Source: Eximiradius sp. (GTDB lineage Bacteria > Bacteroidota > Ignavibacteria > Kapaibacteriales > UBA2268). From it: DNA of 37,113 nt. The notes under the pieces are model-generated. The model saw only the letters and a program-made list of their open reading frames with translations, had not been told where the DNA came from and did no database searches. A program made the position numbers and the translations under genes. This document shows positions 14,037 through 35,867 of this stretch, in pieces (position 1 is the stretch's first letter; every line of letters begins with the position of its first letter). The stretch lies in assembly GCA_937127445.1 (NCBI GenBank), contig CAKZLY010000011.1, forward strand, positions 1 through 37,113, in the 5' to 3' direction.

Positions 14037-14068
14037 TTGTAGAGCCGCAAAGCATTGCGGCTCTACAA
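14037..14068 (+). repeat. Palindromic repeat, copy 1
   Basis: A perfect 14-bp inverted repeat (TTGTAGAGCCGCAA) with loop AGCA, followed by TATTTTT. It sits 18 bases after the redoxin stop. It may act as a terminator, but a near-copy follows 22 bases later, which marks it as a dispersed palindromic element. Confidence 0.85.
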
Positions 14069-14090
14069 TATTTTTCCATCACACCTTGTC

Positions 14091-14122
14091 TTGTAGAGAC
14101 GCAAGGCATTGCGGCTCTACAT
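14091..14122 (+). repeat. Palindromic repeat, copy 2
   Basis: A second copy of the 32-base element in the same orientation. It begins TTGTAGAGACGCAA and has loop GGCA. The right arm is identical to copy 1 except for its last base, and the left arm has one change that leaves one internal mismatch. TTTTT follows. Similar GTAGAGACGC palindromes are known as abundant intergenic repeats in several phyla (general knowledge). Confidence 0.8.
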
Positions 14123-14213
14123 TTTTGATTATTAATTATTCGAAAAAAAAATTCCCAATATGTTTTAGTAAATTCTTAATTTTGTTTTTTTAATATATAT
14201 TTGGGTTGATAAA

Positions 14214-15928: not shown

Positions 15929-15931
15929 TGT

Positions 15932-16477: not shown

Positions 16478-17147
16478 TATTATATCGGCTGTCCCGGAAT
16501 TAATGAAGTCTTATCTTCAAGGTAGCATACTGAAAATTGCACAGGAGAAAAATCTGGTAGAGATACAATTGCATAATTTGCACAATTATGCAATTGACCG
16601 CTTTCGCCATATCGACGACACACCTTATGGTGGAGGCGCCGGAATGATAATCAAGTGCCAACCTATATTCGATTGCATCGAGAAACTTCAAAGCAAACGT
16701 TCGTATGACGAAATAATTTACGTATGCGCCGATGGGTATCCACTAACGCAATCAGTTTGCAATGAATTATCATTGAAGCAAAATATTATTATACTTGCAG
16801 GGCATTACAAAGGAATAGACCAGCGGGTGCGGGACTATTTCGTTATGCGCGAAATTTCGATTGGGGATTATGTGCTAAGCGGGGGAGAATTACCAGCATT
16901 GGTGTTAACTGATGCGATAGTTCGCTTGATACCGGGAGTAATTGGCAATGCAGAATCTGCATTAGAGGACTCGTTCCAAAATGGATTGCTCGAACCGCCA
17001 CAGTATACTAAGCCGTCGGAATTTCGCGGAATGAGCGTACCTGAAGTGCTGCTCTCAGGCAACCACGAACGTATTCGCCAATGGCGTGAGCAACAAGCCT
17101 TGGAAAAAACTCGCCTTCGTCGTCCCGATTTGCTGGGAGAGGGATAA
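16467..17147 (+). CDS. trmD: tRNA (guanine37-N1)-methyltransferase
   Basis: TrmD adds the N1-methyl group to G37 of tRNAs, using S-adenosylmethionine bound in a trefoil knot; this prevents frameshifts. The 226-residue protein has TPYGGGAGMIIK, GHYKGIDQRVRDYF and the knot segment ISIGDYVLSGGELPALVLTD. I use the ATG giving MRIDIISAVPEL because GAGGTG lies 7 bases before it and the N-terminus fits; a GTG three codons upstream is also in frame. It overlaps rimM by 11 bases. Confidence 0.95.
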   Translation: MRIDIISAVPELMKSYLQGSILKIAQEKNLVEIQLHNLHNYAIDRFRHIDDTPYGGGAGMIIKCQPIFDCIEKLQSKRSYDEIIYVCADGYPLTQSVCNELSLKQNIIILAGHYKGIDQRVRDYFVMREISIGDYVLSGGELPALVLTDAIVRLIPGVIGNAESALEDSFQNGLLEPPQYTKPSEFRGMSVPEVLLSGNHERIRQWREQQALEKTRLRRPDLLGEG

Positions 17148-17222
17148 TCACCAAAATTTTTTCTTACAATTTATTTCTCTCTTATTTGTTATAGATAATA
17201 TATTTTTTCGTCTGCGAATTCT

Positions 17223-18587
17223 ATGAATTACAATCATACTAATTTTTTTGACAAATATAAGGATTTTGCTACTAAACTCGTTGTTTGCAACGATTTGCGT
17301 TCGCTTTTCGGCACTGTCGATAAACTCGTCAATGAAATTTGCGATTATGAATATATGGTGCTGTATTACTACACTCCACATTCTGATAGATTAATCGCTG
17401 TTACAACAAAAGGTCTTACCAAAGAGGAAAGATTTATTGCTCAAAAAACAGCTATGCAGCGAGCGCCTGGTCGTTGCTTACGAGCCAAAGAAATCATCTA
17501 TATCAAAGAAGCAGACAGCGAAGCTTACGAACTCCAAAACAAATTTGTAAAACCTACGCTGCTTAATTCGAGGCTATACATTCCCTTGATTAACAATAAT
17601 CAAGTGCTGGGTGTTTATTCGCTTGCAAGCACAAAAGTTGATAATTTTTCCGACGAAGTAATAAATGCTATTTCCTTTATTACAAACATAGCTGCTGTCA
17701 TCTACAAAAAAATAATCGATACCCGCGATCTGGGAAGAATTAACAAACGTCTTGAAGAAATTAATCGAAACTTCTTTTCACAAAAGCTGCAATCAATTGG
17801 ACAGCTTGCCGCCGGTATTGCCCACGAAATTAATACTCCGCTGCAATACATAAATGATAATCTTGACTTTTTAGAGCATTCCTACGAAGCATTATCAAAT
17901 TTTGCTTCAAGCATTTATGATTTGATTAATGATTGGGAAACATACAATTGGAGCGATGCCCGAAACATAATAAAAAGGAACATAAAAGAAACTGATATAG
18001 ATTTTTTCCTCTCAGAAATTCCGGTCGCGATCAGTCAATCCCAGGATGGTATTTTGAAAATCAGTAAAATTATAAATACAATCAAAAACTTCTCGCAAGT
18101 TGGGATAAAAGAACAATCTTTTCTCAATATTAATCGGACGCTCGAAGATGTTGTGCTAATCACTCGAAACGAATGGAAAAAAGTTGCAGATGTAAATCTA
18201 ATTTTACACAACGACTTGCCTGTTATCTATTGTTACGCTGACGAAGTCAATCAAGTGTTGCTGCAATTTTTGCTCAATTCAATTGATGCGATAAAAGAAA
18301 AAATCCAGATTGACAAAGATTATACTTTCGGCAAGATAGAAATTTCCACTTGCTTTGACGACAAATATATCGTAATTCAATTTGTTGACGATGGGATTGG
18401 CATACAAGAAAAGCATTTAGACAAGATTTTTGACCCATTTTTCACAACAAAGCCGCCTGGCAAAGGAACAGGTCAGGGACTTGCAGTTGCCCACAATGTC
18501 ATTTGTAGCAAACTTGGTGGTGATATTTTTGTCTCATCAAATTATTTGAAAGGAACAGAATTTATTATTAAATTGTCATTCGAATAA
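17223..18587 (+). CDS. GAF-domain sensor histidine kinase
   Basis: A 454-residue soluble sensor kinase with no membrane segment. A GAF-like domain (about residues 10-165) is followed by a short linker and a HisKA-type dimerisation helix with phosphoacceptor His201 (AAGIAHEINTPLQY). The HATPase domain has an N box near 346 (LNSIDAI), DDGIGI near 388, and GKGTGQGLAV near 414. The ligand of the GAF domain is unknown. The receiver gene starts 20 bases later and a receiver-phosphatase gene overlaps that one, so the three form a signalling operon. There is no clear ribosome binding site; a 75-base gap separates it from trmD. Confidence 0.9.
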   Translation: MNYNHTNFFDKYKDFATKLVVCNDLRSLFGTVDKLVNEICDYEYMVLYYYTPHSDRLIAVTTKGLTKEERFIAQKTAMQRAPGRCLRAKEIIYIKEADSEAYELQNKFVKPTLLNSRLYIPLINNNQVLGVYSLASTKVDNFSDEVINAISFITNIAAVIYKKIIDTRDLGRINKRLEEINRNFFSQKLQSIGQLAAGIAHEINTPLQYINDNLDFLEHSYEALSNFASSIYDLINDWETYNWSDARNIIKRNIKETDIDFFLSEIPVAISQSQDGILKISKIINTIKNFSQVGIKEQSFLNINRTLEDVVLITRNEWKKVADVNLILHNDLPVIYCYADEVNQVLLQFLLNSIDAIKEKIQIDKDYTFGKIEISTCFDDKYIVIQFVDDGIGIQEKHLDKIFDPFFTTKPPGKGTGQGLAVAHNVICSKLGGDIFVSSNYLKGTEFIIKLSFE

Positions 18588-18607
18588 TTCTTTATTAGAG
18601 CATTGTT

Positions 18608-18991
18608 ATGGCAAATGTTTTGTTTGTAGACGACGAAGAGTTTATTCTGCTTGGGTTGAAGCGACTGGTTAAAAGTGCGTCAGATGTTATCGATGCTGAA
18701 TTTGCAACATCTGGCAAAGAAGCACTCGACAAAATAGCCACCAAAAATTTCGATATTATCATTACTGATTTATATATGCCTGAAATTGATGGTGTGAAAC
18801 TACTTGAATTTGCAAAAGAAACTCAACCTAACGCTATTAGAATTATGATGACAGGACACTTTAATTCTGAGATTGAAAAATTCAAAAACGGATTTGCTCA
18901 CATAGTTCTCTCAAAACCTGTTAGTTACAAAATGTTGTTGAATACTATTAGCGACTGCCTATCCAAAAAAGAAGAATTGCTACAACAATGA
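18608..18991 (+). CDS. Single-domain response regulator receiver
   Basis: A 127-residue receiver domain without an output domain. The acidic pocket is Asp8 and Asp9, the phosphoacceptor is Asp54 (IITDLYMPEIDG), the switch Thr lies in RIMMTGH near residue 82, and the conserved Lys lies in LSKP near 103. All catalytic residues are present. It lies between a kinase and a receiver-phosphatase, so it may act as a phosphate shuttle or competing acceptor (inference). Its last four bases overlap the next gene (ATGA). Confidence 0.92.
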   Translation: MANVLFVDDEEFILLGLKRLVKSASDVIDAEFATSGKEALDKIATKNFDIIITDLYMPEIDGVKLLEFAKETQPNAIRIMMTGHFNSEIEKFKNGFAHIVLSKPVSYKMLLNTISDCLSKKEELLQQ

Positions 18992-20169
18992 ACAAAAAAA
19001 TTCTCTTCGTTGATGACGAAATAAATGTTCTGCACGGTTACAGACGAAATCTAAGAAGTCTATTTGATGTTCATACAGCTAATAGTGGCAGCGAAGCTCT
19101 GAAAATAATCGCCGGACATGGAGATTTTGCAGTTATCATTTCCGACTACCGTATGCCAGAAATGGACGGAATTGAACTGCTTCACAAAGTTAAAGAAATT
19201 TCACCCGATACAATCCGAATTATTCTCACTGGATTTGCAGATATGCAAATTGCCATCGAAGCAATCAACGAAGGCAATATTTTCCGCTTCCTTACAAAGC
19301 CATTGCCAACAGATAAACTTATAAACTCGATTAATGACGCACTCGAGCAATATAGACTCATCACAACAGAAAAAGAACTAACGAGAAAACTCCAAGAAGC
19401 TTACGACACAATCAAACGAGACTTAGAAACCGCCGCCGAATTGCAACGCGAGTTTTTACCTCAGAACAATGTTTCCTACGGCGACTGCCGATTTAACTGG
19501 ATATTTGTGCCAAGCGTGTTTGTCTCGGGCGATACATTTAACTTTTTTCCTTTAAATAATAGATATATTGCTTTTTATATAGTTGATGTAGCTGGCCACG
19601 GTTTGCCTGCGGCGTTTCTGTCTGTTTCGCTTTCCCGTTCATTAAGCCAAGATACAGGCAAGAAACTTTTGCTCGACGAGAAAACCGGCAATTATGTTTT
19701 GCCATCGATTGTTATTAAATCACTAAACGAACAGTTTCTTTCGCGTGGGAAAAATGCTGAATACTTCACTATGCTATATGGCATTATCGATTTAATCGAA
19801 GATAAAATAATATTCTCGCAGGCGGGGCATCCAAACCCATTTCTAATTAAAGCCGGAGGCAAAGCTGAAATGGTTGCTTCTCGTGGCTTCCCAGTTGGTA
19901 TTTTGCCCGAAGCTGAATACTACGACCAAGTTATTCCATTCGAAACTGGCGATAAATTCATCATCTATACTGACGGTATAACCGAATGCGCCGGAGTTAA
20001 AAACAAAATTCTCATTCAAAACAAACTTATTGATTTCCTAAACAATCATTCAAATAACAACTCCGAGATTATGCTTCGCTCGATTGTCCCCGAACTTAAG
20101 GTCTGGACAAACGGGGAAGAATTCTATGACGATCTCACAATGCTAATAATCGAAAGAAAACTGTTTTAG
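18988..20169 (+). CDS. Response regulator with PP2C-type (SpoIIE/RsbU) phosphatase output
   Basis: The 393-residue protein has an N-terminal receiver (Asp10, Asp53 in ISDYRMPEMDG, LTKP lysine), a helical linker (about 125-155) and a SpoIIE-type PP2C phosphatase domain (about 165-390). Metal-binding aspartates are visible in VSGDTFNFF, IVDVAGHGLPAAF, YTDGITECAG and YDDLTML. In related systems such phosphatases dephosphorylate an anti-sigma-factor antagonist. No anti-sigma or antagonist gene is in this window, so the target is unknown. Its 3' end overlaps the convergent mutL stop by four bases. Confidence 0.92.
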   Translation: MNKKILFVDDEINVLHGYRRNLRSLFDVHTANSGSEALKIIAGHGDFAVIISDYRMPEMDGIELLHKVKEISPDTIRIILTGFADMQIAIEAINEGNIFRFLTKPLPTDKLINSINDALEQYRLITTEKELTRKLQEAYDTIKRDLETAAELQREFLPQNNVSYGDCRFNWIFVPSVFVSGDTFNFFPLNNRYIAFYIVDVAGHGLPAAFLSVSLSRSLSQDTGKKLLLDEKTGNYVLPSIVIKSLNEQFLSRGKNAEYFTMLYGIIDLIEDKIIFSQAGHPNPFLIKAGGKAEMVASRGFPVGILPEAEYYDQVIPFETGDKFIIYTDGITECAGVKNKILIQNKLIDFLNNHSNNNSEIMLRSIVPELKVWTNGEEFYDDLTMLIIERKLF

Positions 20170-22004
20170 ATACGTTTAAAACTTTTGTCCAATTCGTGTA
20201 AACTAATTTCCAGAACAACGGGTCGACCGTGCGGGCATACATACGGCATTTTGCACTGCATAAGATTGCGCGCAAGATGCAACATCTCGTCTGGCGAAAG
20301 TTTCTGCCCCGTTTTCACTGCCGAGCGACAAGCAAAACTTGCAGCAAGGCTGTCCCGCTTTGTGCTGTGCTTTATTTCAAGCAATTTCACATATTCGCTC
20401 AAAATTTCGGAAAAACTCGAAATAGCATCACTTTCGGGAATGTCCAGAGGGACGCTCATTATTTCAATTTTGCCATCAGGATATAAATTAAAGTCGAAGC
20501 CAAGTTTTCGTAATTCTTGGTCAATCTCTCTTGCAATTGCTATTTGTGAGGGTTCAATTACTGAACTTATGGGGAAAAGCAACACCTGCATATTTGAAAA
20601 ATCTGAGTTCATCGCACGCAAAGCTCTTTCGTAGAGTATTCGCTCATGTGCATTATGTTGGTCTATAATAAATACACCTGTGGGGCTTTGCATCAATATA
20701 TACTTATTGTGAATTTGCAAAAATTGCGCGTCATCGTTAATTTCAATTCTGTCTTTGGGCGTCTGAAAATCGCTTTTCGAGGCAGCATCGAAAAGCAAAT
20801 CAAAGGCACTTCTACTGCTTTGCTCGGAATTGCTAAAACGGCGTTCGAGTGGAGGTCGCCAGTTGGAAGTTTGCTTAAATGCAAAACTTTCGGTTAATAC
20901 CTCGCCTGTCTTTCTATCCACAAGAATATTTTCTCGAGAATTATCCTGCACATCGAAACGAACGAACGGGCTGTTATCTAATTTCTCAACCTTGTGAGCG
21001 GTAGTAAAGTTATATTTTGCAAGTACTTCTGAAACTGAACGATGTAGAGCTGAAAAAATTAATTTCTCATCGTCGAACTTAACTTCATGCTTTTGAGGAT
21101 GTATATTTATATCAACTTTTCGTGGATCAATCACAATATTGATAACGTAGAAAGGTTTGTAATTTTTTTCGAGTAAATGCTCGAAAGGAGCAAATATTGC
21201 ATAATTCAAGTTTTTGCTAACAACTGGTCGGTTGTTCACAAATAGATGCTGATAATTCCCCGTAGGACGAGCCGCTGCTGGCTTGCCGATAAATCCATGG
21301 ATTAAAACCAAATCGTTAGAAAATTCAACTTTTGCAATTTCATTAGCAATATTCTCGCCGAAAACGTTCTTAATTCGCTCTTCCTGGCTCGAAGGGTGCA
21401 AATCATAAACCAAATTATCTGAATCGTAATAAACTAATCTCTTATCGTAGTGAATTACCGCAAATCTTGTTACTGTTTCTGTAATATAGCGGTATTCGGT
21501 AATGTCTGATTTAAGAAATTTTTTTCGAGCTGGCACATTAAAAAATAAATTTCTGACAAAGACTTGAGTGCCATTGTCGCACTTGACAGGTGAAATTTGA
21601 AATGTCTGATTTGGTTCGGACCGCAGCGACCAACCGTGTTCATCTTGTATTCGTTTGGTGCGGATTTCCATCGAAGCAACAGCAGAAATCGAAGCAAGCG
21701 CCTCGCCGCGAAATCCATAAGTTTGTATTTGCTCTAAATCTTCTTGCGTAATTATCTTGCTTGTAGAATGCCGCAGAGGTGCAAGTTCCAAATCTTCACG
21801 GCTCATTCCTTTGCCGTTGTCCAGAACATGAATAAGAGTCTTGCCCGAACCTTTGACAACTATTCCGATAGAGGTAGCACCTGCATCAAGCGAGTTTTCA
21901 ACTAATTCTTTGACAACAGATTCGGGGCGCTGAACGACTTCACCTGCTGCAATTTGGTTTGCAATATATTCAGGCAAAATCTTTATTTGGTTACTTTGTT
22001 CCAT
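20166..22004 (-). CDS. mutL: DNA mismatch repair protein MutL (endonuclease type)
   Basis: MutL links MutS mismatch recognition to strand incision. The 612-residue protein has the GHKL ATPase N-terminus (ELVENSLDAGA, DNGKGM, YGFRGEALASISAV), a variable linker about 330-420 and a C-terminal dimerisation domain. The metal-binding endonuclease motif is present as DQHNAHERILYE near residue 447 (usual DQHAxxExxxxE; the usual Ala is Asn). The partner motifs ACRSAVK, CPHGRP and a terminal FKR are also present, so it probably nicks DNA itself, as in bacteria without MutH. It follows a sensor kinase gene by 21 bases in the same direction. Confidence 0.96.
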   Translation of the reverse strand: MEQSNQIKILPEYIANQIAAGEVVQRPESVVKELVENSLDAGATSIGIVVKGSGKTLIHVLDNGKGMSREDLELAPLRHSTSKIITQEDLEQIQTYGFRGEALASISAVASMEIRTKRIQDEHGWSLRSEPNQTFQISPVKCDNGTQVFVRNLFFNVPARKKFLKSDITEYRYITETVTRFAVIHYDKRLVYYDSDNLVYDLHPSSQEERIKNVFGENIANEIAKVEFSNDLVLIHGFIGKPAAARPTGNYQHLFVNNRPVVSKNLNYAIFAPFEHLLEKNYKPFYVINIVIDPRKVDINIHPQKHEVKFDDEKLIFSALHRSVSEVLAKYNFTTAHKVEKLDNSPFVRFDVQDNSRENILVDRKTGEVLTESFAFKQTSNWRPPLERRFSNSEQSSRSAFDLLFDAASKSDFQTPKDRIEINDDAQFLQIHNKYILMQSPTGVFIIDQHNAHERILYERALRAMNSDFSNMQVLLFPISSVIEPSQIAIAREIDQELRKLGFDFNLYPDGKIEIMSVPLDIPESDAISSFSEILSEYVKLLEIKHSTKRDSLAASFACRSAVKTGQKLSPDEMLHLARNLMQCKMPYVCPHGRPVVLEISLHELDKSFKRI

Positions 22005-22025
22005 ATGATAGTAGACGATGGAACG

Positions 22026-23975
22026 TCAATTAGATTTATTATTGCAGTTTTGCGGTACTCTAACAATAAAAGTAGAACCACTACCAACTTTGCTTCTCAC
22101 TTCAACTTGTCCGCAGTGCGCTTCTACTGCACGGCTAACTATGGACATTCCAAGTCCATACCCGGAAATTTTTCCGACGTTCGATGCACGGTAAAATGAT
22201 TGCGTAAGCAAGTGCTGCTCTTCTTCGGGAATACCAATCCCATAATCTGTAACGATGAATTCAACTATTTGTTCGTTGCAATTAACTGTAAAATCAATTA
22301 CTTTGCTATTTGGAGAATATTTAACTGCATTCGAAAGCAAATTATTAATCGCGAGAGAAAGAAGCTGGTCGTCGATGAATACACTTTTGCATTCACCGTT
22401 AATATTAAAATTAACTCTATGCGAAAAGCCCGAATTGAATTCTGCATTTTTGATTAAATTTAAACAAAGCTGCTCTAAATTACATTCTCTGGGATGAAAT
22501 TGGAAATTGCCGCTATCCATACGCCCGATTACAAGCAAGTTTTCCATCAAGTTTGTCATCTTTTGGATTGTTTCTTTTATACGTTTGATTTGTTTTCGGC
22601 GTTCTTCGGGATGAATTTTGTCGTAATATTTTCCGAGCATATCAGCCGAAAGCATAATAGTAGTAAGCGGGGTACGAAATTCATGAGAAACCATTGAAAT
22701 AAATTGGGTGCGAAGCTTATTTAAATCTTGTTGTTTGGCAAGCGCTGCTTCCATTTTGCGTTCAGCGTTAATTCTGTCTGTTATATCAAGCGTAATGAAC
22801 ACACTCCAAATATCATCAGGCAGAGGCATCTGCTCGCAAGAAAGCAGAACGTGGCGTTCCGCCCCTTCAAGATTAATTGTAATTTGCTTGTTTACAAAAG
22901 ATTTATCATTTTCGATTGCATCAATAATATTTGTCAATAGTTCGCTATTTTTAAATTCTGAGAATTCATCAAGAGAATGTCCAATTGCACGGTCGCGATT
23001 AATTCTGAAAAATTCTGTACATTTAATATTTGCATCAACAAATATTTTTTTCTTGTTGGAAATAATGAAAATAGGGACAGGACTCGAATGGAAAATTTTG
23101 GAAAACCGAGTCTCGCTTTTGAGAAGTTCCTCTTGCGAACGATACAGTTGAGTTAAATCTTCGGAAATACCTAAAAAATAGCGAGGTTCGCCTTTGCTAT
23201 TTTTAATGAGAATTTTTTTTGTTAGCAATACTTTCAATTTGTTGTTTTTTGTAAGACACATTTCTTCTACGGTCCGAGTAGAGATATTGCTGCGAATGAG
23301 TTCAGCATCTTTCGAGTGGTAATACTCTGCATATTTTGGATGAAATAAGTCGAAAACGGTTTTGCCAATCATTTCGTCAGGTGAAAATTCGATAATATCA
23401 ATAGCACTTTTATTAACATATAAGTATTTCATCGAAGCAACATCTTTGACATAAATTAAGCTTGGTATGTTTTCGAGTATAGTTTGCATAAAGATATGAT
23501 GTTCTCGCAACATACCTTCTTCTTTCAGGATAGCAGTAATTTCCCGTTCCAGAGCCGACGTTTTCTCGTCTTCGGTTAGTTGTTCGGAATGTAAAATTTT
23601 ATTTGAATGTTCGTATTTCAGAAGTTTATCAATTTCACGAGCAAAATGGTCAATATTAGAGTAACGGAATACAAGTGAAACGCCTTTTTTAATAAGCAGC
23701 GATGCATCAAATTCTGTAATATCATCAGAAATAACAACTATTGGAATATCTATATTTCTCTTATATTCCGAGATAGTGTCTACATAAATTGCATAATCCA
23801 GCAGTATCACAGCAATGTCAATTGGGTTCTTGTGCTTATGGTCAATATATTCGTAAATATCTTTGAAAATAAAGTATTCGACAAGATAGCCCCAATCTTT
23901 TAAACTTTTTGTTAACTTTCCGATTAATTGAGTGTTGCTTTCGCAAAAGAAACCAACGCTAATATTTTTGTCCAT
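22026..23975 (-). CDS. PAS-domain hybrid sensor histidine kinase with degenerate receiver-like N-terminus
   Basis: A 649-residue soluble kinase. Residues 1-125 resemble a receiver domain (Asp60 at the end of a beta strand, VVISDD). It lacks the paired acidic residues and the conserved Lys, so it is probably a non-phosphorylated pseudo-receiver. Two PAS domains follow (about 155-280 and 290-400), then HisKA with phosphoacceptor near His431 (MVSHEFRTPLTT) and a HATPase with NNLLSNAVKYSP, DYGIGIP and GYGLGMSIV near 607. No membrane segment is seen. It lies 6 bases after the MscS gene and 21 bases before mutL. Its partner regulator is not in this window. Confidence 0.9.
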   Translation of the reverse strand: MDKNISVGFFCESNTQLIGKLTKSLKDWGYLVEYFIFKDIYEYIDHKHKNPIDIAVILLDYAIYVDTISEYKRNIDIPIVVISDDITEFDASLLIKKGVSLVFRYSNIDHFAREIDKLLKYEHSNKILHSEQLTEDEKTSALEREITAILKEEGMLREHHIFMQTILENIPSLIYVKDVASMKYLYVNKSAIDIIEFSPDEMIGKTVFDLFHPKYAEYYHSKDAELIRSNISTRTVEEMCLTKNNKLKVLLTKKILIKNSKGEPRYFLGISEDLTQLYRSQEELLKSETRFSKIFHSSPVPIFIISNKKKIFVDANIKCTEFFRINRDRAIGHSLDEFSEFKNSELLTNIIDAIENDKSFVNKQITINLEGAERHVLLSCEQMPLPDDIWSVFITLDITDRINAERKMEAALAKQQDLNKLRTQFISMVSHEFRTPLTTIMLSADMLGKYYDKIHPEERRKQIKRIKETIQKMTNLMENLLVIGRMDSGNFQFHPRECNLEQLCLNLIKNAEFNSGFSHRVNFNINGECKSVFIDDQLLSLAINNLLSNAVKYSPNSKVIDFTVNCNEQIVEFIVTDYGIGIPEEEQHLLTQSFYRASNVGKISGYGLGMSIVSRAVEAHCGQVEVRSKVGSGSTFIVRVPQNCNNKSN

Positions 23976-23981
23976 ATTCGA

Positions 23982-25079
23982 TTAATTTATTTTATTGTTA
24001 TTAATATTTTCAAGAAAGACTTTTGAAGTTGGATAAGCAAATTCAATTTGATTTTTCTTAAATTCATCGAAAATTTTGTATAATATTTCCTGCTGCTTGT
24101 CGAGAAATACTTTTAGATTATCGTCTTCCACCCAGAAAATAGTTTGAAATTCGAGCGAAAAATTCCCGAAAGCCCTGAAATGAACACGCTCGAAGCGAAC
24201 TTGCTCGATATTATTTATTACATTTTCGATAATTTGCGGAATGATTTTAAGCTTTTCGAGTGGTGTTTCGTAAACAACACCTAAATTGATTTCTGCGCGA
24301 CGTTCCTTCATTTTAGTATAATTGCGAATTCGAGCAGCAGTAATATCAGAATTAGCAAATACGTGAAGTTCTCCAGAGATGCTGCGCAATCTTGTGGAGC
24401 GAATACCAATGTATTCTACCGTCCCCCAATTCCCGTCTATCAAAATTGTATCACCTATTTCGAAAGGCTTGTCTATCAGAATTGAAACGTAGCTGAATAA
24501 GTCCCCCAATATTTTTTGTCCTGCAAGTGCAATAGCCAGACCACCAATCCCAAGCCCCGCAACCAGTGCAGAAATATTAAACCCAAGATTACTTAAAATA
24601 AACACAATACCTAACGCCCAAAGTGCGATATTAATTGCCGGAATAACAGCTCGTAACACACTTGCTTTGCTCGGAGTTGATGATTTTTCTATCTTTTGCT
24701 CTATTAAAAAATCAATAAGCGCCACAACAAACCGTGTAACGTAGAACACGACAATCAGCAGTGCAACTACATCCAGCCCTTTCAATACGTTCTTGTCAAG
24801 TTGTAGAGTCTTAAAAGAAAAATAAAAAACCCCGAAATACTCTATCGGAATTAGCAGCTTCTTGATTTTTCTTAATATAAAATCGAATAATTTGGACTGC
24901 GCCTTTCTTGCAAACTTGTTAAGGAAAACAAGAATCGTAGATCTAAAAAGCTTAATCAATAATGTAAATATCAGAAAAATCGCAATAAAATCTAAATAAT
25001 CAACTACCCGATTACCAAGAAATTTATTTTGAAAGAAATCCGAATTAAGAATATTCTCACTTAATAAGTATTGTAGCAT
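23982..25079 (-). CDS. MscS-family mechanosensitive ion channel
   Basis: This inner-membrane channel is expected to open under tension and release solutes during osmotic downshock. The 365-residue protein has several N-terminal membrane helices. The pore-lining, Gly/Ala-rich TM3 is GLGIGGLAIALAGQKILGD, followed by the beta domain (DKPFEIGDTILIDGNWGTVE, IGIRSTRLRS) and a C-terminal alpha/beta part. I start at the ATG giving MLQYLLSEN; upstream in-frame TTG and GTG codons would add a few residues. Only a weak GGTG precedes it. The sensor kinase gene starts 6 bases after its stop. Confidence 0.9.
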   Translation of the reverse strand: MLQYLLSENILNSDFFQNKFLGNRVVDYLDFIAIFLIFTLLIKLFRSTILVFLNKFARKAQSKLFDFILRKIKKLLIPIEYFGVFYFSFKTLQLDKNVLKGLDVVALLIVVFYVTRFVVALIDFLIEQKIEKSSTPSKASVLRAVIPAINIALWALGIVFILSNLGFNISALVAGLGIGGLAIALAGQKILGDLFSYVSILIDKPFEIGDTILIDGNWGTVEYIGIRSTRLRSISGELHVFANSDITAARIRNYTKMKERRAEINLGVVYETPLEKLKIIPQIIENVINNIEQVRFERVHFRAFGNFSLEFQTIFWVEDDNLKVFLDKQQEILYKIFDEFKKNQIEFAYPTSKVFLENINNNKIN

Positions 25080-29639: not shown

Positions 29640-29673
29640 AAAATGGGGCTGCGGTTGTAGCCCCCATTTTTTT
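29640..29673. terminator. Bidirectional intrinsic terminator
   Basis: AAAATGGGGCT pairs with AGCCCCCATTTT (one bulged G) around an 8-base loop. TTTTTTT follows on the plus strand, and an AAAA run on the left gives a short U tract on the minus strand. It lies between the stop codons of the convergent lipoprotein and portal genes and overlaps the last bases of the portal gene. Confidence 0.85.
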
Positions 29674-30715
29674 AATCATTTTCATTCGAAGCATAAGAAA
29701 AATCATCAGGAATAAACAAAAACTTTGTGTTGAGATTCTCTATCGAATTTACTTTATACACCAAGTCAACCAACTTTTGCAAATAGTGTTGAACAAATTG
29801 CAAATCCGACATAATCACTTCTCGCCTAATAGAATAATGCGTCCTCGAAGCAGCATAAGAACCGCTATCAAGTTCAGTTGTGAGAGTTTGTGAAAGCAAC
29901 GCCTTCGATATCTCTGCATTACAGGTGCGGACAAGCTGATAGTAAAGTTCAACCGAACTTGTTCGAGATGGCTCAGTAAGCTTAATATCGATGCCCTCGG
30001 GAGCAACTATCACAGAGTTTTCCGCCATATTTACCAAGCTATCGGCAAGATCTTCGATTTCTTGGTTTGTTGCATATCTTTGATATTGCCCGATAAGCAA
30101 CGGCATACCATATCGCTCCATAAAATTCATCCAGAAACGAAAAGCTCCATTTTTAAAAGTGCATGACCAATAACACTTGCTAAGAAGCGCAGTACCATAT
30201 GGGTTTTGCAGAGTTGATTCATATTGCGGGCATATAATTTTTTCTTCGGGAAACTCAATAAATTCATTTTGGAGATTGCTTTTCAGCATCAGTTTTCCGT
30301 TAGCTGAAAATCCAAAGTAATCTTGTGGTAGCGGAATAAATCTATCTGGTACAATCGAAAATTCACTCGTATTATCTACTTTCCAGACAATCTCAATCGG
30401 CTGAAAACCAAATAGAATTGCGTTGAAAATACTGCTTATGAGCAAGCTTAAATCGATTTTCTCGAAAATCATTTTAATTTCGCGTCCGAATTTATCGTTT
30501 GTAGCGACTTCCCATTTGCAATTTGTAATTCCACTTTTGCGGGACTGAATGCAACTCCAAACGTGTGGGTCGTTCATCAAGTCGCGCAATGTTTCGTAGT
30601 TTCGCCCAGCATAGCTTAGCACTTTATCTGGATTTGGCAATAACCCGATGTATTTCATAAATGAGTATTGTCGAACGCGGCCTACAAGTTCTTGCGTGAG
30701 AATGTTTTTCTGCAT
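29672..30715 (-). CDS. Phage portal protein, DUF935/Mu gp29-like
   Basis: The portal is the dodecameric ring at one capsid vertex through which DNA enters and leaves. The 347-residue protein has family-like segments near the start (NDPHVWSCIQSRKSGITNCKWEV), in the middle (FGFQPIEIVWKV, NPYGTALLSKCYWSCTFKNG) and later (FMERYGMPLLIGQY, TELDSGSYAASRTHYSIRREV). Mu gp29 is longer (about 500 residues), so this form has a shorter C-terminus. AGGTGA precedes the ATG. In Mu-like phages the portal gene comes first, next to terminase; here it is the last gene of the operon and no terminase is found. The frame is intact. Confidence 0.88.
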   Translation of the reverse strand: MQKNILTQELVGRVRQYSFMKYIGLLPNPDKVLSYAGRNYETLRDLMNDPHVWSCIQSRKSGITNCKWEVATNDKFGREIKMIFEKIDLSLLISSIFNAILFGFQPIEIVWKVDNTSEFSIVPDRFIPLPQDYFGFSANGKLMLKSNLQNEFIEFPEEKIICPQYESTLQNPYGTALLSKCYWSCTFKNGAFRFWMNFMERYGMPLLIGQYQRYATNQEIEDLADSLVNMAENSVIVAPEGIDIKLTEPSRTSSVELYYQLVRTCNAEISKALLSQTLTTELDSGSYAASRTHYSIRREVIMSDLQFVQHYLQKLVDLVYKVNSIENLNTKFLFIPDDFSYASNEND

Positions 30716-30722
30716 AAATCAC

Positions 30723-31160
30723 CTATTTAATTTTTGCAATAATTAATCCAATAGCAACTCCCGAAACTGCATAAAGTAGTTTATCTTGAAGCAGGCAATC
30801 TTTCTCCGACTTACTAATGTTCAATATTGTCCGTTCGTAACGAAATGTATCAGGCATTGCAGCAAAACGTAGAAACAAACTGTTTTCTGGGTAGCTGTAA
30901 CTTATATTTACTGTATCTTTGCTTATCAAAGTGTCCAACGAAAAAGTAAAACCGTTAAATATTGTGTCCAAATGTTGAATTTTAGGTTTTACTTTGATTT
31001 TTATCTCTTTACGGGGCAACATTTTGACAACTGTATCGCGATAAACTTCTTTTTCGACAATGTAATCAACTTTATTATTTCTGTTAGACCCAAAAATCAA
31101 ATAAAACAATGCAAATCCCATCAAAAATCCTAAAAACAAAACAAACAAATTAGATTTCAT
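30723..31160 (-). CDS. Small membrane-anchored protein of the phage block
   Basis: The 145-residue protein has an N-terminal membrane helix (about residues 5-23). A charged middle follows (VEKEVYRDTVVKMLPRKEIK) with beta-prone stretches, and a second hydrophobic segment lies near the C-terminus (about 127-143). I do not recognise a family by sequence; similar proteins with this layout occur in phages and prophages of Bacteroidota. A role in lysis, such as a spanin-like link, is a guess from position. The start overlaps the previous gene by 11 bases, and the portal gene follows after 7 bases. Confidence 0.7.
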   Translation of the reverse strand: MKSNLFVLFLGFLMGFALFYLIFGSNRNNKVDYIVEKEVYRDTVVKMLPRKEIKIKVKPKIQHLDTIFNGFTFSLDTLISKDTVNISYSYPENSLFLRFAAMPDTFRYERTILNISKSEKDCLLQDKLLYAVSGVAIGLIIAKIK

Positions 31161-31608
31161 CGCTTTTGCTCACTCTAATAATCAACCGAAACAATAGATT
31201 TCGTGCATTTTCCGACTGAGTAACAAAAACCGAGAGTATGTCTTTTTGAGTAAGTTCGATGGACTCGTCTAAATTCACAGCCATGATATTAGAATTTGCT
31301 TCAATCGCTGAGAGCTGCTGAACGGTATTGCCATTTTGCTTAACCAAAAGAACAGCATTACCCACCAAAAGCCCAGATTCATAGCTAACGATTTCCGCTT
31401 TTTGCCCATTTGCAAAAAATATTCGGTGCGGGAAGAAATACTCACCTGCTGAAATTTCACCATATTTCGAAAAATCTACCACCAGAACGAATTCCGAAAG
31501 CAATAAATGATGCACCATCTCAACCAAATCACTTTGCAAGCGAATATTCCCCCCTATTGTTCCCCACATTGTTTGTTGCATAATTGCTGGGAAATAATAA
31601 AATGGCAT
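31150..31608 (-). CDS. Putative phage fibre-like structural protein
   Basis: The 152-residue protein has near its N-terminus the segment MWGTIGGNIRLQSDLVEMV (residues 14-32). It follows the W-G-x-I-x-G-x-I-x-x-Q-x-D-L pattern common at the start of phage tail-fibre and appendage domains. The rest is beta-rich with no known motif. It is far too short for a full tail fibre, so it may be a small capsid or neck appendage. AGGTG precedes the ATG. It overlaps the next gene by 11 bases. Confidence 0.65.
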   Translation of the reverse strand: MPFYYFPAIMQQTMWGTIGGNIRLQSDLVEMVHHLLLSEFVLVVDFSKYGEISAGEYFFPHRIFFANGQKAEIVSYESGLLVGNAVLLVKQNGNTVQQLSAIEANSNIMAVNLDESIELTQKDILSVFVTQSENARNLLFRLIIRVSKSDEI

Positions 31609-31618
31609 AAAACACCTA

Positions 31619-31957
31619 TTACTGAATTTCTAAGAAAATTCTAATTTTTCCACTCGTTGTTCCATTTGAATTATAACTAAATTTCACGTAACGAACCGAA
31701 GTAACCAACAAGAAAATGCTTGTATCTTGGGCGTTTGTGTTAGTCGAAATGGGGAGCACCACCCCAACAGACTTTATTATTCTATCGGGTGAAGCAAATA
31801 TTTCCAATCGTCCTTTCAAATCACCTTCGACATTTTCCCAAAGCACATTGAGCGACCTAACCTTCAGCGACGGCTTATGTTTGGAATAATCTATCGCTAT
31901 CCAATCAGTTTCGAAATCTTGCGATAAATCTGTATTTTCATATAATTTCATTAGCAT
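31619..31957 (-). CDS. Small beta-rich protein of the phage block, unknown function
   Basis: The 112-residue protein (start MLMKLYENTDL) has alternating hydrophobic and polar residues typical of a beta sandwich (SLNVLWENVEGDLKGRLEIF, VRYVKFSYNSNGTTSGKIRI). No signal peptide or membrane segment. I do not recognise a family. The ATG is chosen because GAGGTG lies 7 bases upstream; an alternative start 30 bases earlier would overlap the lysin gene. By position it may be a structural or adhesion protein. Confidence 0.65.
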   Translation of the reverse strand: MLMKLYENTDLSQDFETDWIAIDYSKHKPSLKVRSLNVLWENVEGDLKGRLEIFASPDRIIKSVGVVLPISTNTNAQDTSIFLLVTSVRYVKFSYNSNGTTSGKIRIFLEIQ

Positions 31958-31967
31958 CACTATCACC

Positions 31968-32555
31968 TCAAACAACGCTGAAACCAATAAGCCCTCGCAC
32001 TTTCATACGAGAGAGCGGATGAAGAATATTTCGCTTCTGAAAGAAAACGCCTTCATACTTCTTGCCTTCAACAACGGAACTCGAATTGAATGCAATTGTC
32101 CGGACAAAACCAGCCGCCAGTACCTCGACGACGCATTCTATATGTCCACGGAATGAGTTCTTCTGCTTCCAGACAATTAAATCATACGTGCAGGGATAGT
32201 AGTTAGTTTGCTTACCTTGCCTAATAGCAAAAGCAAACATTTCATTAGCGACAGCAGTCGCGGGAAGCGGATGAAAACGCTTTGGCAAACATAATTTACG
32301 TCTTGCTTGCTCGAAGCACCACCAGATGCCAGCAGCACAATACGCATAATTGCCCCGCAACCCAAGCAATTGAGTATATTTATTTACCTCGCCGTCGTTT
32401 CTGCCCGTTGCCTCGTAAATTCCAACTTGATTATACATTATTGCAATTGCCTCTTGCAGCAGCAGTCCATTGCAGGGAATTTCGTAGCGTTTGGCGGTAA
32501 TTGCTCCAAGCGGCAATAGCAAAAGCAGAACTCCATATAAACACCGTCTTTTCAT
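31968..32555 (-). CDS. Secreted NlpC/P60- or CHAP-like lysin
   Basis: The 195-residue protein begins with a clear signal peptide (MKRRCLYGVLLLLLPLGAITA). The mature domain matches the Cys-His amidase/peptidase pattern: Cys73 in YAYCAAGIWWCFEQA, His138 in RGHIECVVEV, and a possible third residue Asn157 in IAFNSSS; YDLIVWK precedes the His. Such enzymes cut peptidoglycan peptides or amide bonds. The start with GGAGG just upstream gives the signal peptide. It follows the holin-like gene by 8 bases, the classic lysis-cassette order. A Sec signal on an endolysin removes the need for a large-hole holin. Confidence 0.8.
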   Translation of the reverse strand: MKRRCLYGVLLLLLPLGAITAKRYEIPCNGLLLQEAIAIMYNQVGIYEATGRNDGEVNKYTQLLGLRGNYAYCAAGIWWCFEQARRKLCLPKRFHPLPATAVANEMFAFAIRQGKQTNYYPCTYDLIVWKQKNSFRGHIECVVEVLAAGFVRTIAFNSSSVVEGKKYEGVFFQKRNILHPLSRMKVRGLIGFSVV

Positions 32556-32563
32556 CTTCCCTC

Positions 32564-32866
32564 CTATATCTGAGTGAAATATACTCCAAGCACAACTAAT
32601 CCGATGCATACGTGAACGCCAAGGAATATATTACCCAGTGCGTTCCACATCTGATAACGCATAGTCTCGCTTCGCGATAGAATAAATGCAGCAATAGAGG
32701 TAATTCCAATTGCCAACGCCTCGAAAACAATCACGGCAACAACTGTCTCTTTTATTGCTGATTGCGACATAAAGAACAAGCCCAATGCAAAAGGAACAAA
32801 CCATATTAAATTACGTAGAATCCAACTTGCTGCTTTTGCCAGTTTATTTTTTTCTGAACATTTCAT
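32564..32866 (-). CDS. Holin-like small membrane protein
   Basis: The 100-residue protein has three predicted membrane helices (about residues 15-34, 41-63 and 76-98) and a charged N-terminus (MKCSEKNKLAKAA). Small size, three helices and position directly before a lysin gene fit a class I holin topology. I see no family signature, so the call rests on topology and context. It starts 3 bases after the stop of the gp36-like gene. Confidence 0.65.
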   Translation of the reverse strand: MKCSEKNKLAKAASWILRNLIWFVPFALGLFFMSQSAIKETVVAVIVFEALAIGITSIAAFILSRSETMRYQMWNALGNIFLGVHVCIGLVVLGVYFTQI

Positions 32867-32869
32867 TTC

Positions 32870-33295
32870 CTATTCCCTGAAATTTCTGAATTCTTCTAAA
32901 TGAGCATCATCAAAAAGACGCTCGCCCGAATGAAAAATAATTTTTAATGTTTTTTCTGGTAGTTGAATTTTCAAGTTGCCTGCGGAAATTTGTTCAAGCA
33001 GGCGAACTGCTTCTTTTTTTTCGTTAGTAACTTCAATTGGAACAAGCAATTCGCGATTTTTACGCAAGTAAAGATTATATATAGCGATTTTTTTCGTTAA
33101 ATGAAGAAGAATATTAGGTAATGAAGTTTCCTCTAACTCATATCGTGCAAAAACATATGCTTTCACTTCTTCGGTGGCTAATGAAAGTGCCTCATTAACC
33201 ACCGACTGAACTATTTCGCTGCCATCGCCAGAAAGCTCAGCAAGTTTGGTTTCGCCGAGTTCGGCAACTAAATCATCTATCGTTACCCACTGCAT
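32870..33295 (-). CDS. DUF1320/Mu gp36-like head-completion protein
   Basis: The 141-residue protein fits the small family of Mu-type head-tail connector proteins. It has an N-terminal WVTIDDLVAELGETKLAEL segment, a helical region (SVVNEALSLATEEVKAYVFARY, LTKKIAIYNLYLRKN) and a short C-terminal tail. In Mu these proteins are encoded after the major capsid gene, as here. I choose the ATG giving MQWVTIDDL because family members start this way; an in-frame ATG four codons earlier is possible. Its stop is 3 bases before the holin-like gene. Confidence 0.8.
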   Translation of the reverse strand: MQWVTIDDLVAELGETKLAELSGDGSEIVQSVVNEALSLATEEVKAYVFARYELEETSLPNILLHLTKKIAIYNLYLRKNRELLVPIEVTNEKKEAVRLLEQISAGNLKIQLPEKTLKIIFHSGERLFDDAHLEEFRNFRE

Positions 33296-33321
33296 AATAC
33301 TTCCCATACTTCTAAATAAAA

Positions 33322-33663
33322 TTATGGAACAAGAAGCACTTTGATAATACCACCGTTTGCTGTTGCTTCGAGAGATCGAGCATTGACAGCTGCCCCCGAG
33401 CTGGCAACCACAGCCCTGCCCTGAGAATCACTTGCGAGGTTTTCTCCTACCGAAATGCTTCCCACCGCCTCGACGGGAACTGTGCCATATGTAACTATGC
33501 TCGCATCTTTATTGGCTGCCCACTTGCGCTCCGTTACACCAAGAGATTTGCTTCCAGCAGTGCAATGCGAACCATTGAAACCAACAAAACGAAATGCCAG
33601 CAAATTATCGCTCGATTTAATTGTAACTTTCTGAACGGGCTGAAAAAGAACGCTGTTTTTCAT
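33322..33663 (-). CDS. Capsid cement/decoration protein, DUF2190-like
   Basis: The 113-residue protein is Gly/Ala/Ser-rich with short beta strands and shows the DUF2190 pattern (VPVEAVGSISVGENLASDSQGRAV, GSKSLGVTERKWAANKDASI). DUF2190 proteins coat and stabilise HK97-fold capsids. GGAGG lies just upstream of the ATG. It follows the major capsid gene by about a dozen bases, the usual place. Confidence 0.8.
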   Translation of the reverse strand: MKNSVLFQPVQKVTIKSSDNLLAFRFVGFNGSHCTAGSKSLGVTERKWAANKDASIVTYGTVPVEAVGSISVGENLASDSQGRAVVASSGAAVNARSLEATANGGIIKVLLVP

Positions 33664-33675
33664 ATTTCCTCCAAT

Positions 33676-34602
33676 TTATATTTGATTTAATATTAAACAT
33701 CCTGCTTGCGGTGAGGTTATCTTCAAGCAATAATTATCCGTTGCGCGAATTACTTTGATTTTTCCACCGTTTTCGTAGTAGGTGTCTATCTCAGGCATTC
33801 CACGTCTACGAAGTGCATAGCCAAAGCTAGGATTGAACTCACTACGGACCTCCGGCGAACTGTCATCAACAAATGCAAGTATTATGGAATTTCCCCAGAC
33901 ATTTTCGAAGCTTATTCCGTCGGGCGAGAACACAGTTGTAGCAATTTTTACTTTCGAAATTTCAAAGTAATCGGAAATAATTTTTGTATTTAGTGAAGTT
34001 ATTCCTGCATATTTAAATTTGTCCTGCAAGGAAACATCATTATTGATAATCTGATAAATCGGGTAGCTCAATATCATTGTATTGGGACGAATTCCAATGC
34101 TGGAACGAACTCGCTCAATTGCTTCCTTGATTATTTCAGTAGAATTATAAAATAAATTAACGGAACTTGTCTCATCTATGATAATTTTGTTGTCGCTGGG
34201 ATAATTATCAGGATTGGTTGCTATTTTTGCAGATTCAATTTCGCAATTGAGTTCCAAAATATCAATTAATTGGCGGACAGTATATTGTTCGTACTTGTAG
34301 AAATCATTGATTTGCTCTTCTTCGAGATAATCGACAGCCATCTCGACGTCGCGTTCGATTGTTTCAAACTCCAGCAAATCAAATTCAGTTTGCGGTAGGC
34401 GGTTGGAACTGCTGCCCATAGCACGTGCAGTCGAGCGTTCCACAAAAGCAGATTTGCCGAAAACAGGAATACGACCTTTCTGTTTGCTGACTTCGACAAC
34501 CGGAAAAAGCTCTTTCCCGACGTATTTGCGGTTCACATAGCCCTGTGCAAGCGTAGTTAGCACGGGGTCAAGAGTTCTTAATTCATAAGTTTGATTAGGC
34601 AT
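33676..34602 (-). CDS. Major capsid protein (HK97-fold)
   Basis: The 308-residue protein resembles a common phage major capsid family. The N-terminus is LDPVLTTLAQGYVNRKYVG. It has a long central helix (VRQLIDILELNCEIESAKIA), the segment NTMILSYPIYQIINNDVSL, and the C-terminal block FNPSFGYALRRRGMPEID followed by ATDNYCLKITSPQAGCLI. The shape fits the HK97 fold; the sequence is closer to this group than to Mu gpT as I remember it. It overlaps the protease gene by 8 bases, with GGAGGA before its ATG, so the two are translationally coupled. The frame is intact. Confidence 0.85.
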   Translation of the reverse strand: MPNQTYELRTLDPVLTTLAQGYVNRKYVGKELFPVVEVSKQKGRIPVFGKSAFVERSTARAMGSSSNRLPQTEFDLLEFETIERDVEMAVDYLEEEQINDFYKYEQYTVRQLIDILELNCEIESAKIATNPDNYPSDNKIIIDETSSVNLFYNSTEIIKEAIERVRSSIGIRPNTMILSYPIYQIINNDVSLQDKFKYAGITSLNTKIISDYFEISKVKIATTVFSPDGISFENVWGNSIILAFVDDSSPEVRSEFNPSFGYALRRRGMPEIDTYYENGGKIKVIRATDNYCLKITSPQAGCLILNQI

Positions 34603-35476
34603 TTTCTCCTCCTTGTAAAATATTTAATGCTTGCTGGTAGGTAATATTTGGGTTTTCCATAGTCATTTCTACCGCTCGGCGATGAATTTCGAGGCGATTT
34701 TCGTCAACTTTTTTCCCCTCGAACTGGTTTTCGATTTTGCCTACATTTGAAATAGATAATTGAGAGAAATACGCAGAAGGTTTTATGCAATCAAGAATAG
34801 ATATAAATTCCTCAGCAATATTAAATGAGATTTCTTCGTTGAATTTGCGAGATAATTCATCAGATTGGACAAGCAAATTAACAAGTTTCTCCTTGATTGC
34901 ATCGTTTTTGAGAAGTAGTTTGTTGCGTTCAAGATAATTCTCGATAAACTCGCTATATTCGAGCCTGCGAAGCCTATCACGAAGTTGAGTAATTTGTTCG
35001 TTGAGCAGTTTGTTTTGTTCGGAAAGTGTTTGTATTTCATCTTCTTCGTCTGTTTTGTCCAGAAATTCATAAGCAAAATAGTAGTAGTCGTATTCACCAT
35101 CGTCAAACGAAACTGGGGCAAGTCCATCAACTGCAGGATTTGCGGCTCCGAGCAATCCTACGTGCCGAAGAAGTAGTTCCGGAGTAAGAGCAATGGACAC
35201 TCGCCGAAATTTACCTTGGCGAACATCTTCGACAATTTCGCTTGATAATTCTTTGAGCTTTGCCAGAAGTTTATTGCCACGCCGAGCCAAACGCTCGACC
35301 CAACCATAAGCTGGAGCGTCGTCCTTCGGATGACCTTTCACAAGCGGAGCTTCGTAACCATGCTGAGTAGCTGCGTTGTAAGTGCGTTCAATTGCTTCAA
35401 GTGTAACACTATCAGCATAGAAAGGACGCCCCTTGCTATCGTTGAAACTTCCTGTTCGAAATACCTCAATCCACAT
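34595..35476 (-). CDS. Phage capsid maturation protease/scaffold, Mu gpI-like
   Basis: The 293-residue protein has the Mu I-like N-terminal domain: FRTGSFNDSKGRPFY, EAPLVKGHPKDDAPAYGWV (His49) and GKFRRVSIALTPE (Ser94), then LRHVGLLGAANPAVDGL. These fit the serine-protease core. The C-terminal half is helical and charged with a coiled coil at about 145-175, as expected for a scaffold. The ATG giving MWIEV is preceded by CGAGGT; an upstream ATG would add 11 residues without a good binding site. It is the first gene of the phage block and overlaps the capsid gene by 8 bases. A promoter-like site lies about 25 bases upstream. Confidence 0.85.
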   Translation of the reverse strand: MWIEVFRTGSFNDSKGRPFYADSVTLEAIERTYNAATQHGYEAPLVKGHPKDDAPAYGWVERLARRGNKLLAKLKELSSEIVEDVRQGKFRRVSIALTPELLLRHVGLLGAANPAVDGLAPVSFDDGEYDYYYFAYEFLDKTDEEDEIQTLSEQNKLLNEQITQLRDRLRRLEYSEFIENYLERNKLLLKNDAIKEKLVNLLVQSDELSRKFNEEISFNIAEEFISILDCIKPSAYFSQLSISNVGKIENQFEGKKVDENRLEIHRRAVEMTMENPNITYQQALNILQGGENA

Positions 35477-35506
35477 TTTTACCTCGAATAGTGTTGAACC
35501 TTGATG

Positions 35507-35538
35507 CAAATCTATCGAGGCATAGCGAACAGGCTAAA
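35507..35538 (-). promoter_or_regulatory. Putative Bacteroidota-type promoter for the phage block
   Basis: On the minus strand TAGATTTG (35507-35514) matches the -7 consensus TAnnTTTG. TTTA lies 20 bases further upstream (35535-35538) where TTTG is expected. The implied start is near 35500, giving a leader of about 25 bases to the protease ATG. The -33 match is imperfect. Confidence 0.45.
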
Positions 35539-35867
35539 CAGACAAATTTTAATTTTCTTAAAATCAGATTTTAAAAGTGTTTTTTTATTTTTCGGGCACG
35601 TTATTTTTTTCTTAAATAAGCAATACTAATAAATCATTATTTTCGTTAAGATATTAAATTTTATTCAAGTTTTCGTGTGCATTACCGAAAAATATACTTG
35701 AATAATTGAGCCGTTGATTGGGAAAAAATAATTAAAACAAAGTTCTTGAAAATATACGGAGGCTTTTTATTAAATTTATTTTGACGTTGTTTATTTCTAA
35801 ATTAAATTATTAATTAGATATTGTTGTAAAAAATATATTTCTATTGAACTATATAAGGGTTTTAGTT
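35539..35867. other. AT-rich intergenic region between phage block and chemoreceptor
   Basis: This stretch has no gene I can support. At 35663-35703 a nested inverted repeat (ATTCAAG...CTTGAAT outside, TTTTCG...CGAAAA inside, 10-base centre) could be an operator or an RNA hairpin. A GGAGG at about 35758 has no good start codon after it. I see no integrase site, no tRNA-derived attachment site and no flanking direct repeat matching the other end of the block. Confidence 0.5.

Follow-up and report, generated by a model that had tools for sequence, protein, structure and literature searches.

How a compact set of phage head and lysis genes comes to lie in a bacterial chromosome with neither a terminase nor a tail beside it is the question raised by a locus of Eximiradius sp. 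(order Kapaibacteriales). The DNA analyzed, here called the window, is the complete contig C11 (37,113 b) of genome G000, so DNA past position 37113 is out of view in this genome. The cassette in question consists of ten minus-strand open frames at positions 29672 to 35476, reaching 35509 if an upstream TTG start is used, and encodes a protease (PROT), major capsid protein (MCP), cement protein (CEM), head-tail adaptor (GP36), holin-like protein (HOL), endolysin (LYS), three small proteins (g7, g8, and g9), and a portal (PORT). An earlier note, made from the letters alone, had described ten intact same-strand genes and proposed that they form a split gene transfer agent (GTA), a satellite, or a domesticated particle freed by lysis; all ten frames are indeed open, and our results support a split GTA or domesticated particle and disfavor the satellite. 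The block is likely the head, attachment, and lysis operon of a domesticated, split GTA that was fixed early in the bacterial family and has been inherited with the chromosome, and the particle is perhaps tail-less. This reading builds on the gene content and order of the block, on purifying selection within the genus, and on an unlinked large terminase (TerL) gene that apparently keeps its active-site residues. The gene set suggests that a family of mostly uncultured bacteria makes its own virus-like particles, the purpose of which is probably to move bacterial DNA between cells.

The terminase had been reported absent, and this holds within the window; however, a TerL gene is present elsewhere in the same genome, on contig C20 (Table 1), where its neighbors are genes for an NfeD-type protein and a 2-hydroxyacid dehydrogenase, one on each side. 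Searches used the Terminase_6N and Terminase_6C models (36 genomes, 22 of them from the family) and then an orthologue profile (60 genomes of the same order, 36 from the family and 24 others). One TerL lineage, with scores of at least 581 bits, occurs as a single copy in 30 of the 36 family genomes; none of the 24 others has it, with one weaker match to the TerL profile (258.7 bits) among them; in G010, the gene is split into two contig-end halves. No cassette gene lies beside TerL in 27 of the 28 TerL loci examined (17 scanned with six cassette profiles and 11 with ten, several on short contigs). In G034 and in the IMG/VR contig L186, TerL immediately precedes PROT, and in G020 it shares one contig with the capsid gene at a distance of ~30 kb. 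An alignment of 17 TerL sequences shows no variation at the putative active-site residues, which we take to be those of Walker A, Walker B, and the nuclease site. The cassette is present in 32 of the 36 family genomes (31 by portal, G030 by capsid), and TerL accompanies it in 30 of these 32, with the G010 halves counted, versus 1 of the 4 cassette-less genomes (Fisher p 0.005, kinship not corrected for). The cassette-less genomes are G005, G016, G023, and G029; the one with TerL is G023, G016 has an 81-residue TerL piece, and genus g3 (G005 and G029) lacks both portal and TerL.

The cassette itself is a property of the family rather than of this genome. Among the 60 genomes, the portal query matched 35, comprising 33 of the 36 from the family and 2 of the 24 others, both of which have long portals; the short, cassette-type portal, recognized by frame length, occurs in 31 of the 36 and is in pieces in G012 and G027. 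A capsid profile gave cassette-type scores (at least 362 bits) in 46 of 54 family genomes, with one copy in each (the G028 gene was counted once, though it lies in two contig-end pieces). As for the eight family genomes below this score, G010 and G032 carry the short portal, G437 and G016 are only 76% and 85% complete, G029 has a prophage-type match only, and G005, G023, and G444 have no match. Across the phylum, a capsid match was obtained in 14 of 395 genomes, 8 of them in the family. Four of the six capsid loci outside the family were read: in every one, portal and protease-capsid occupy opposite strands, and a terminase was identified beside the portal in three. Named relatives are metagenome-assembled genomes of Candidatus Kapabacteria, Candidatus Kapaibacterium, Ignavibacteria, and Bacteroidetes or Bacteroidota. 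A second capsid match was seen in the one-contig genome G439 (G439:C1:13797-14699); its score of 334 bits falls between the cassette and prophage ranges.

Some 30 family loci, many of them truncated at contig ends and some lacking genes, share the gene order PROT-MCP-CEM-GP36-HOL-LYS-g7-g8-(small)-g9-PORT; the flanks vary between genera and are common within the window's genus as far as the contigs extend. A minimal order, PROT-MCP-CEM-HOL-LYS-g9-PORT, is found in genera g15 and g18 and in the IMG/VR contigs L187 and L188, as far as these are covered, and tblastn with one GP36 query gave no match in three minimal-order loci. The portal query found no relative among the IMG/VR viral contigs, and the capsid profile found three short ones: L187 has the full minimal order, L188 has the same order with the capsid in two frames, and L186, the contig with TerL upstream of PROT, ends after the holin. 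These three contigs, although filed as viral, may be chromosomal pieces.

Phylogenetic trees were built for RpoB, TerL, and PORT, together with a quick tree for MCP, and their starred branches do not conflict. Genera g15 and g18 pair in all four trees; g1 joins G004 in the RpoB, TerL, and MCP trees, with G004 left unplaced by PORT; the g9 and g19 pairs are recovered in the TerL, PORT, and MCP trees; and G012 pairs with G018 in the RpoB and TerL trees, unlike in the quick MCP trees, which place G012 with G022 and G024 (support of 84 to 88, not starred). One branch parts 27 cassette MCP rows from 9 phage rows (support 97), and another parts 30 family TerL rows from 5 phage rows (support 100). 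Within the window's genus, the mean ratio of nonsynonymous to synonymous substitution rates (dN/dS) over four species is 0.05 for MCP, 0.06 for PORT, 0.08 for PROT, 0.09 for HOL, 0.10 for TerL, 0.13 for CEM, 0.18 for LYS and g7, 0.20 for GP36, 0.24 for g8, and 0.25 for g9; dS is high in most species pairs, no host gene served as a control, and the LYS length differs between species because first-start frames were used. In the closest pair (G001/G002, dS 0.23 to 0.58), the values are 0.05 to 0.11 for MCP, PORT, PROT, and TerL and 0.30 to 0.37 for g8, g9, and LYS. Three checks that the earlier note had proposed thus came out in its favor, namely, synteny conserved across genera, dN/dS below 1 (means of 0.05 to 0.25), and, at another place in the genome, a matching terminase, which belongs to one unlinked lineage. 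Given capsid genes that occur once per genome, a conserved order, and purifying selection, the cassette is therefore no local relic.

The assignments of the ten genes are of unequal firmness (Table 1). As had been claimed, protease, capsid, cement, gp36, and portal are clear by Pfam and PHROGs, with the lysin just under the cut-off. PROT has an alternative in-frame TTG start at 35509, and its C-terminal part looks coiled and may be scaffold-like; tblastn relatives of MCP comprise 29 phage records, every one below 60% identity. HOL matched no named family in Pfam or PHROGs; it has three hydrophobic stretches in the window copy, as do 20 of 26 homologues, the other 6 having two. For LYS, the start at 32555, behind AGGAGG, is likelier than the first ATG of the frame (32609), and its homologues share a GH-x-E motif (24 of 24) and Y-C-[AS]-A (at least 15 of 24). 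The g7 frame stays open as far as a TTG at 31987. Structure searches with its model gave weak matches (best Protein Data Bank [PDB] E value of 7.8e-4; 52 viral models with E values up to 0.001), among them unnamed phage proteins, minor tail proteins, and one phage capsid chain; g7 may be a decoration or fibre part. The profile family of g8 is defined by a common N terminus at lengths from 152 to 703 residues; some of the long homologues scanned match tail-fibre, tail-collar, or LamG families, others match nothing, and the window copy has no Pfam or PHROGs match of its own. Some genera have extra genes between g8 and g9 (e.g., L029 10284-11355 and L031 11735-12686), encoding a 218- to 255-residue protein, one of which matches a tail-fibre family, and an 89- to 114-residue protein whose N terminus resembles a membrane anchor. 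Protein g9 appears spanin-like by topology: the model shows a helix, a beta-rich middle, and a helix at modest confidence (mean predicted local distance difference test score [pLDDT] 71.3, predicted template modeling score [pTM] 0.34); of 28 homologues, 27 have an N-terminal hydrophobic stretch, and 10 have a further, C-terminal one that exceeds the threshold. The gene is retained in the minimal cassettes.

Table 1. Coordinates of the cassette genes, the upstream region, and the unlinked terminase gene (window positions unless a contig is named)
Feature	Position	Strand	Basis
PROT, head maturation protease	34595..35476	-	phrog_976 E 1e-46, residues 2-135; GAGGT before start
MCP, major capsid protein	33676..34602	-	phrog_1005 E 1.8e-67
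CEM, capsid cement protein	33322..33663	-	PF09956 E 1.7e-6 (above cut-off); phrog_673 E 6.5e-26
GP36, Mu gp36-like head-tail adaptor	32870..33307	-	PF07030 E 8.1e-19; phrog_195 E 2.4e-23
HOL, holin-like membrane protein, 100 aa	32564..32866	-	hydrophobic stretches
LYS, CHAP-like endolysin	31968..32555	-	PF05257 E 2.2e-5; 25.3 bits, slightly below cut-off 26
g7, small beta-sandwich protein	31619..31957	-	AlphaFold model, mean pLDDT 88.7
g8, short member of tail-fibre-like family	31150..31608	-	profile link and common N terminus
g9, putative spanin-like protein	30723..31160	-	N-terminal membrane helix, beta-rich middle, C-terminal helix
PORT, Mu gp29-like portal, short form, 347 aa	29672..30715	-	PF06074 E 5.9e-72; phrog_113 E 2.4e-75
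Upstream region	35477..35843	.	shared with divergent Cache-type gene; long near-identical blocks in four genus species (alignment)
TerL, own genome	G000:C20:80097-81266	-	phrog_38

Tail and minor head genes were sought through three families, Baseplate_J, PF10145 (tape measure), and Mu F, each in 36 genomes (22 of the family and 14 others). Baseplate_J was found in 0 of the 36, and G000 has no match to any of the three. PF10145 matched in 9 genomes, 6 of them in the family (G002, G006, G014, G016, G018, and G021), the G002 match being weak (E 1.1e-4, below cut-off). Mu F matched in 10 genomes, 9 of them in the family, where 10 of its 13 places are on contigs that also bear a long-type portal and the remaining three are on G010:C136, G015:C76, and G016:C123. 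Attachment-type genes in the cassette are the adaptor GP36 and the fibre-like g8.

From these parts, a working scheme for the proposed GTA can be drawn. Protease, capsid, and portal would assemble a procapsid, into which TerL, made from its own locus, would pack host DNA through the portal with no known sequence specificity; the cement would stabilize the shell, gp36 would close the portal vertex, and g7 and g8, substituting for a tail, would make up a short structure for attachment. The producer cell would then be lysed by holin, endolysin, and g9, and the released particles would carry DNA to kin. Features expected of a GTA are in keeping with this scheme: phage-type structural genes (capsid and portal) lie in the chromosome, vertical inheritance and purifying selection are indicated (with mixed distance correlations), a terminase is provided by the unlinked TerL, and no replication or integration genes of its own were seen in the ten genes and scanned flanks, although no dedicated integrase search was made. 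More tentatively, this could be a tail-less GTA of the Kapaibacteria line, older than most genera of the family, with a DNA-filled Mu-type head, its own fibre and lysis set, and a stand-alone motor gene; in the two genera reduced to protease, capsid, cement, holin, lysin, spanin-like protein, and portal plus TerL, it would amount to a programmed release of capsid-protected DNA, entering kin perhaps via natural competence.

Several observations weigh against a domesticated, split GTA. Neither particle, packaged DNA, nor transfer has been seen. The terminase searches covered the large subunit, TerL; G023 has TerL but no MCP or portal match, and conversely, G014 has the cassette but no TerL of the cassette lineage was found in it. 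Cassettes of g15 and g18 lack GP36, g7, and g8, as judged from the cassette loci only. No tail was found, with only three tail or minor head families searched in 22 family genomes, and a tail supplied in trans is therefore possible; without a tail, the delivery step lacks an explanation. Correlations with RpoB distances (computed with one g1 genome) are near zero for TerL (r 0.06), PROT (r 0.04), and LYS (r 0.05; p 0.39 to 0.45) and weak for PORT (r 0.30, p 0.08), and TerL distances do not follow those of MCP (r 0.07, p 0.32); positive values were obtained for MCP (r 0.56, p 0.016) and CEM (r 0.47, p 0.024) against RpoB and for TerL against PORT (r 0.28, p 0.02). The descent argument thus relies more on the supported tree branches than on these mixed correlations. 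In some lineages, moreover, decay is visible: the G012 cassette is broken up, with only lysin and portal pieces remaining, the G027 portal is in two frames, and G006 combines a TerL cut short at ~210 residues with a long branch in the portal tree. These defects may reflect ongoing loss; the one in G027 may instead stem from misassembly.

Such broken copies, together with the missing capsid or portal of G005, G023, G029, and possibly G444, are what a prophage remnant on its way to being lost would leave behind. Frameshifts in sister strains had been named beforehand as evidence against a functional particle; they do occur in a few other genera (G027, G012, and G006) but not in the window's genus, where the intact frames and mean dN/dS values of 0.05 to 0.25 make a remnant already hard to hold, and with one MCP clade and one TerL clade spanning most family genera, we consider this account extremely unlikely. 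A domesticated capsid freed by lysis that transfers no DNA, serving instead as a killer, decoy, or protein-carrying particle, would agree with the lack of Baseplate_J, PF10145, and Mu F in the window's own genome and with the g15 and g18 cassettes without GP36, g7, and g8; it appears unlikely, however, since purifying selection maintains both portal and TerL, with invariant TerL active-site residues, and both genes are gone in genus g3, which points to DNA packaging.

Capsid-forming phage-inducible chromosomal islands (cf-PICIs) are mobile islands with an integrase and linked packaging genes. A satellite of this kind, borrowing tails from helper phages, would account for head genes and an adaptor without tail genes, and tails could come from the long-portal prophages present in several family genomes. 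We nevertheless regard it as highly improbable, because the cassette shows no recognizable mobility gene (scans of the ten genes and of flanking genes, which included no dedicated integrase search, revealed no integrase), because the supported branches of the trees are compatible with vertical descent, and because 27 of 28 loci have TerL apart from the cassette, an arrangement that a self-mobilizing element could not afford; one copy per genome across genera and the cassette's own lysis and fibre-like genes likewise speak against it. Three further candidates were rejected. A functional Mu-type prophage does not fit a block with no TerL beside the portal and no Mu F, tail, or transposase/integrase genes, the TerL on C20 having host neighbors; a tailocin or contractile injection system, which has sheath, tube, and baseplate but no capsid, is at odds with the capsid and with the absence of Baseplate_J from all 36 genomes (the sheath family was not searched); and an encapsulin-type nanocompartment, made of just an HK97-type shell and a cargo protein, would not require the portal, protease, adaptor, and lysis genes that are present.

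Judged by description, the closest published case to the proposed GTA is FpGTA of Faecalibacterium. Its phage-derived genes are reported to lie at two unlinked loci and to comprise head, packaging, fibre/receptor-binding, holin, and endolysin genes; its capsids measure ~40 nm, have no identifiable tails, and hold ~9 kb of DNA, and DNA delivery is still open (PMC12946183). A two-locus layout can therefore make DNA-filled particles. As described, TerL stays with portal and capsid in FpGTA, with fibre and lysis genes at the second locus, whereas here TerL alone has split off, and the FpGTA host belongs to a different phylum. RcGTA and its relatives in Alphaproteobacteria also consist of domesticated phage genes, inherited vertically and spread over more than one locus, as the cassette appears to be; they have siphophage-type tails and TerL in the main cluster, whereas no tail was found here. 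The GTAs of Brachyspira (VSH-1 and BhGTA) likewise lie outside Proteobacteria; their host is unrelated, and their cluster is larger and includes tail genes along with lysis genes. Searches of the open-access literature turned up no published GTA in Kapabacteria or Bacteroidota.

Homologous portal and capsid proteins (~30 to 34% identity) are found in the Mu-like Pasteurella phage AFS-2018a and Pseudomonas phage Komp_PAO1_1, and the protease-capsid-cement-gp36 order of Mu-like phages is similar to that of the cassette. In these phage records, however, the terminase adjoins the portal, and Mu F and tail genes are present; the AFS-2018a record has transposition-type integration genes as well. Prophages of neighboring lineages (L130 to L133) carry homologous protease, capsid, cement, and portal genes, but their portal and terminase lie together on the strand opposite to protease-capsid, whereas the cassette operon ends with the portal, and TerL lies outside it.

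Few GTAs have been studied in detail, mostly from Alphaproteobacteria (PMC12946183). If our reading is true, the cassette would represent a further domestication event, family-wide and apparently vertical, in a Bacteroidota-related line, and its makeup, a Mu-type head with no recognized tail plus an unlinked terminase, would give a short list of parts for a GTA particle. For capsid-lysis islands without terminase, the rest of the genome should be searched before they are called relics, and short contigs filed as viral (L186 to L188) can hold cassettes of the minimal type.

The operon layout agrees with what had been noted. The protease and capsid genes overlap by 8 bases and g8 and g9 by 11, within the 8 to 11 bases described; strong ribosome-binding sites in many genes are likewise recovered, as Shine-Dalgarno-like matches spanning at least 5 bases accompany the likely starts of 7 of the 10 genes, compared with 4% of random positions. 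Host genes do lie on both sides. On the left are an unnamed 260-residue gene and a penicillin-binding protein that combines a transglycosylase with a transpeptidase domain, and on the right is a Cache-sensor gene cut by the contig end; in three same-genus genomes, a Cache-type gene lies to the right of the cassette in all three, and a penicillin-binding-protein gene to the left in both of those with a sufficiently long contig. An Rfam search returned tRNAs only, and no obvious motif common to the upstream regions of PROT and TerL was seen in alignments inspected by eye. The near-identical blocks upstream of PROT in the four species take in the leader adjoining the start codon, and this region (Table 1) is a possible regulatory element of the cassette operon or of the divergent Cache-type gene.

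Two other terminase-like matches were obtained in G000. One, weak, lies within a 1107-residue frame on C13. The other was set aside, since it belongs to a separate, unrelated phage-like contig of the same genome bin (C32, 24.9 kb; L189 corresponds to 5000-24879) and was not picked up by the cassette TerL profile. On this contig, a terminase-like frame of 459 residues is followed by frames of 689, 295, and 433 residues, presumably in head-module order as we read and name them; C32 may be a prophage, a phage, or a binning guest.

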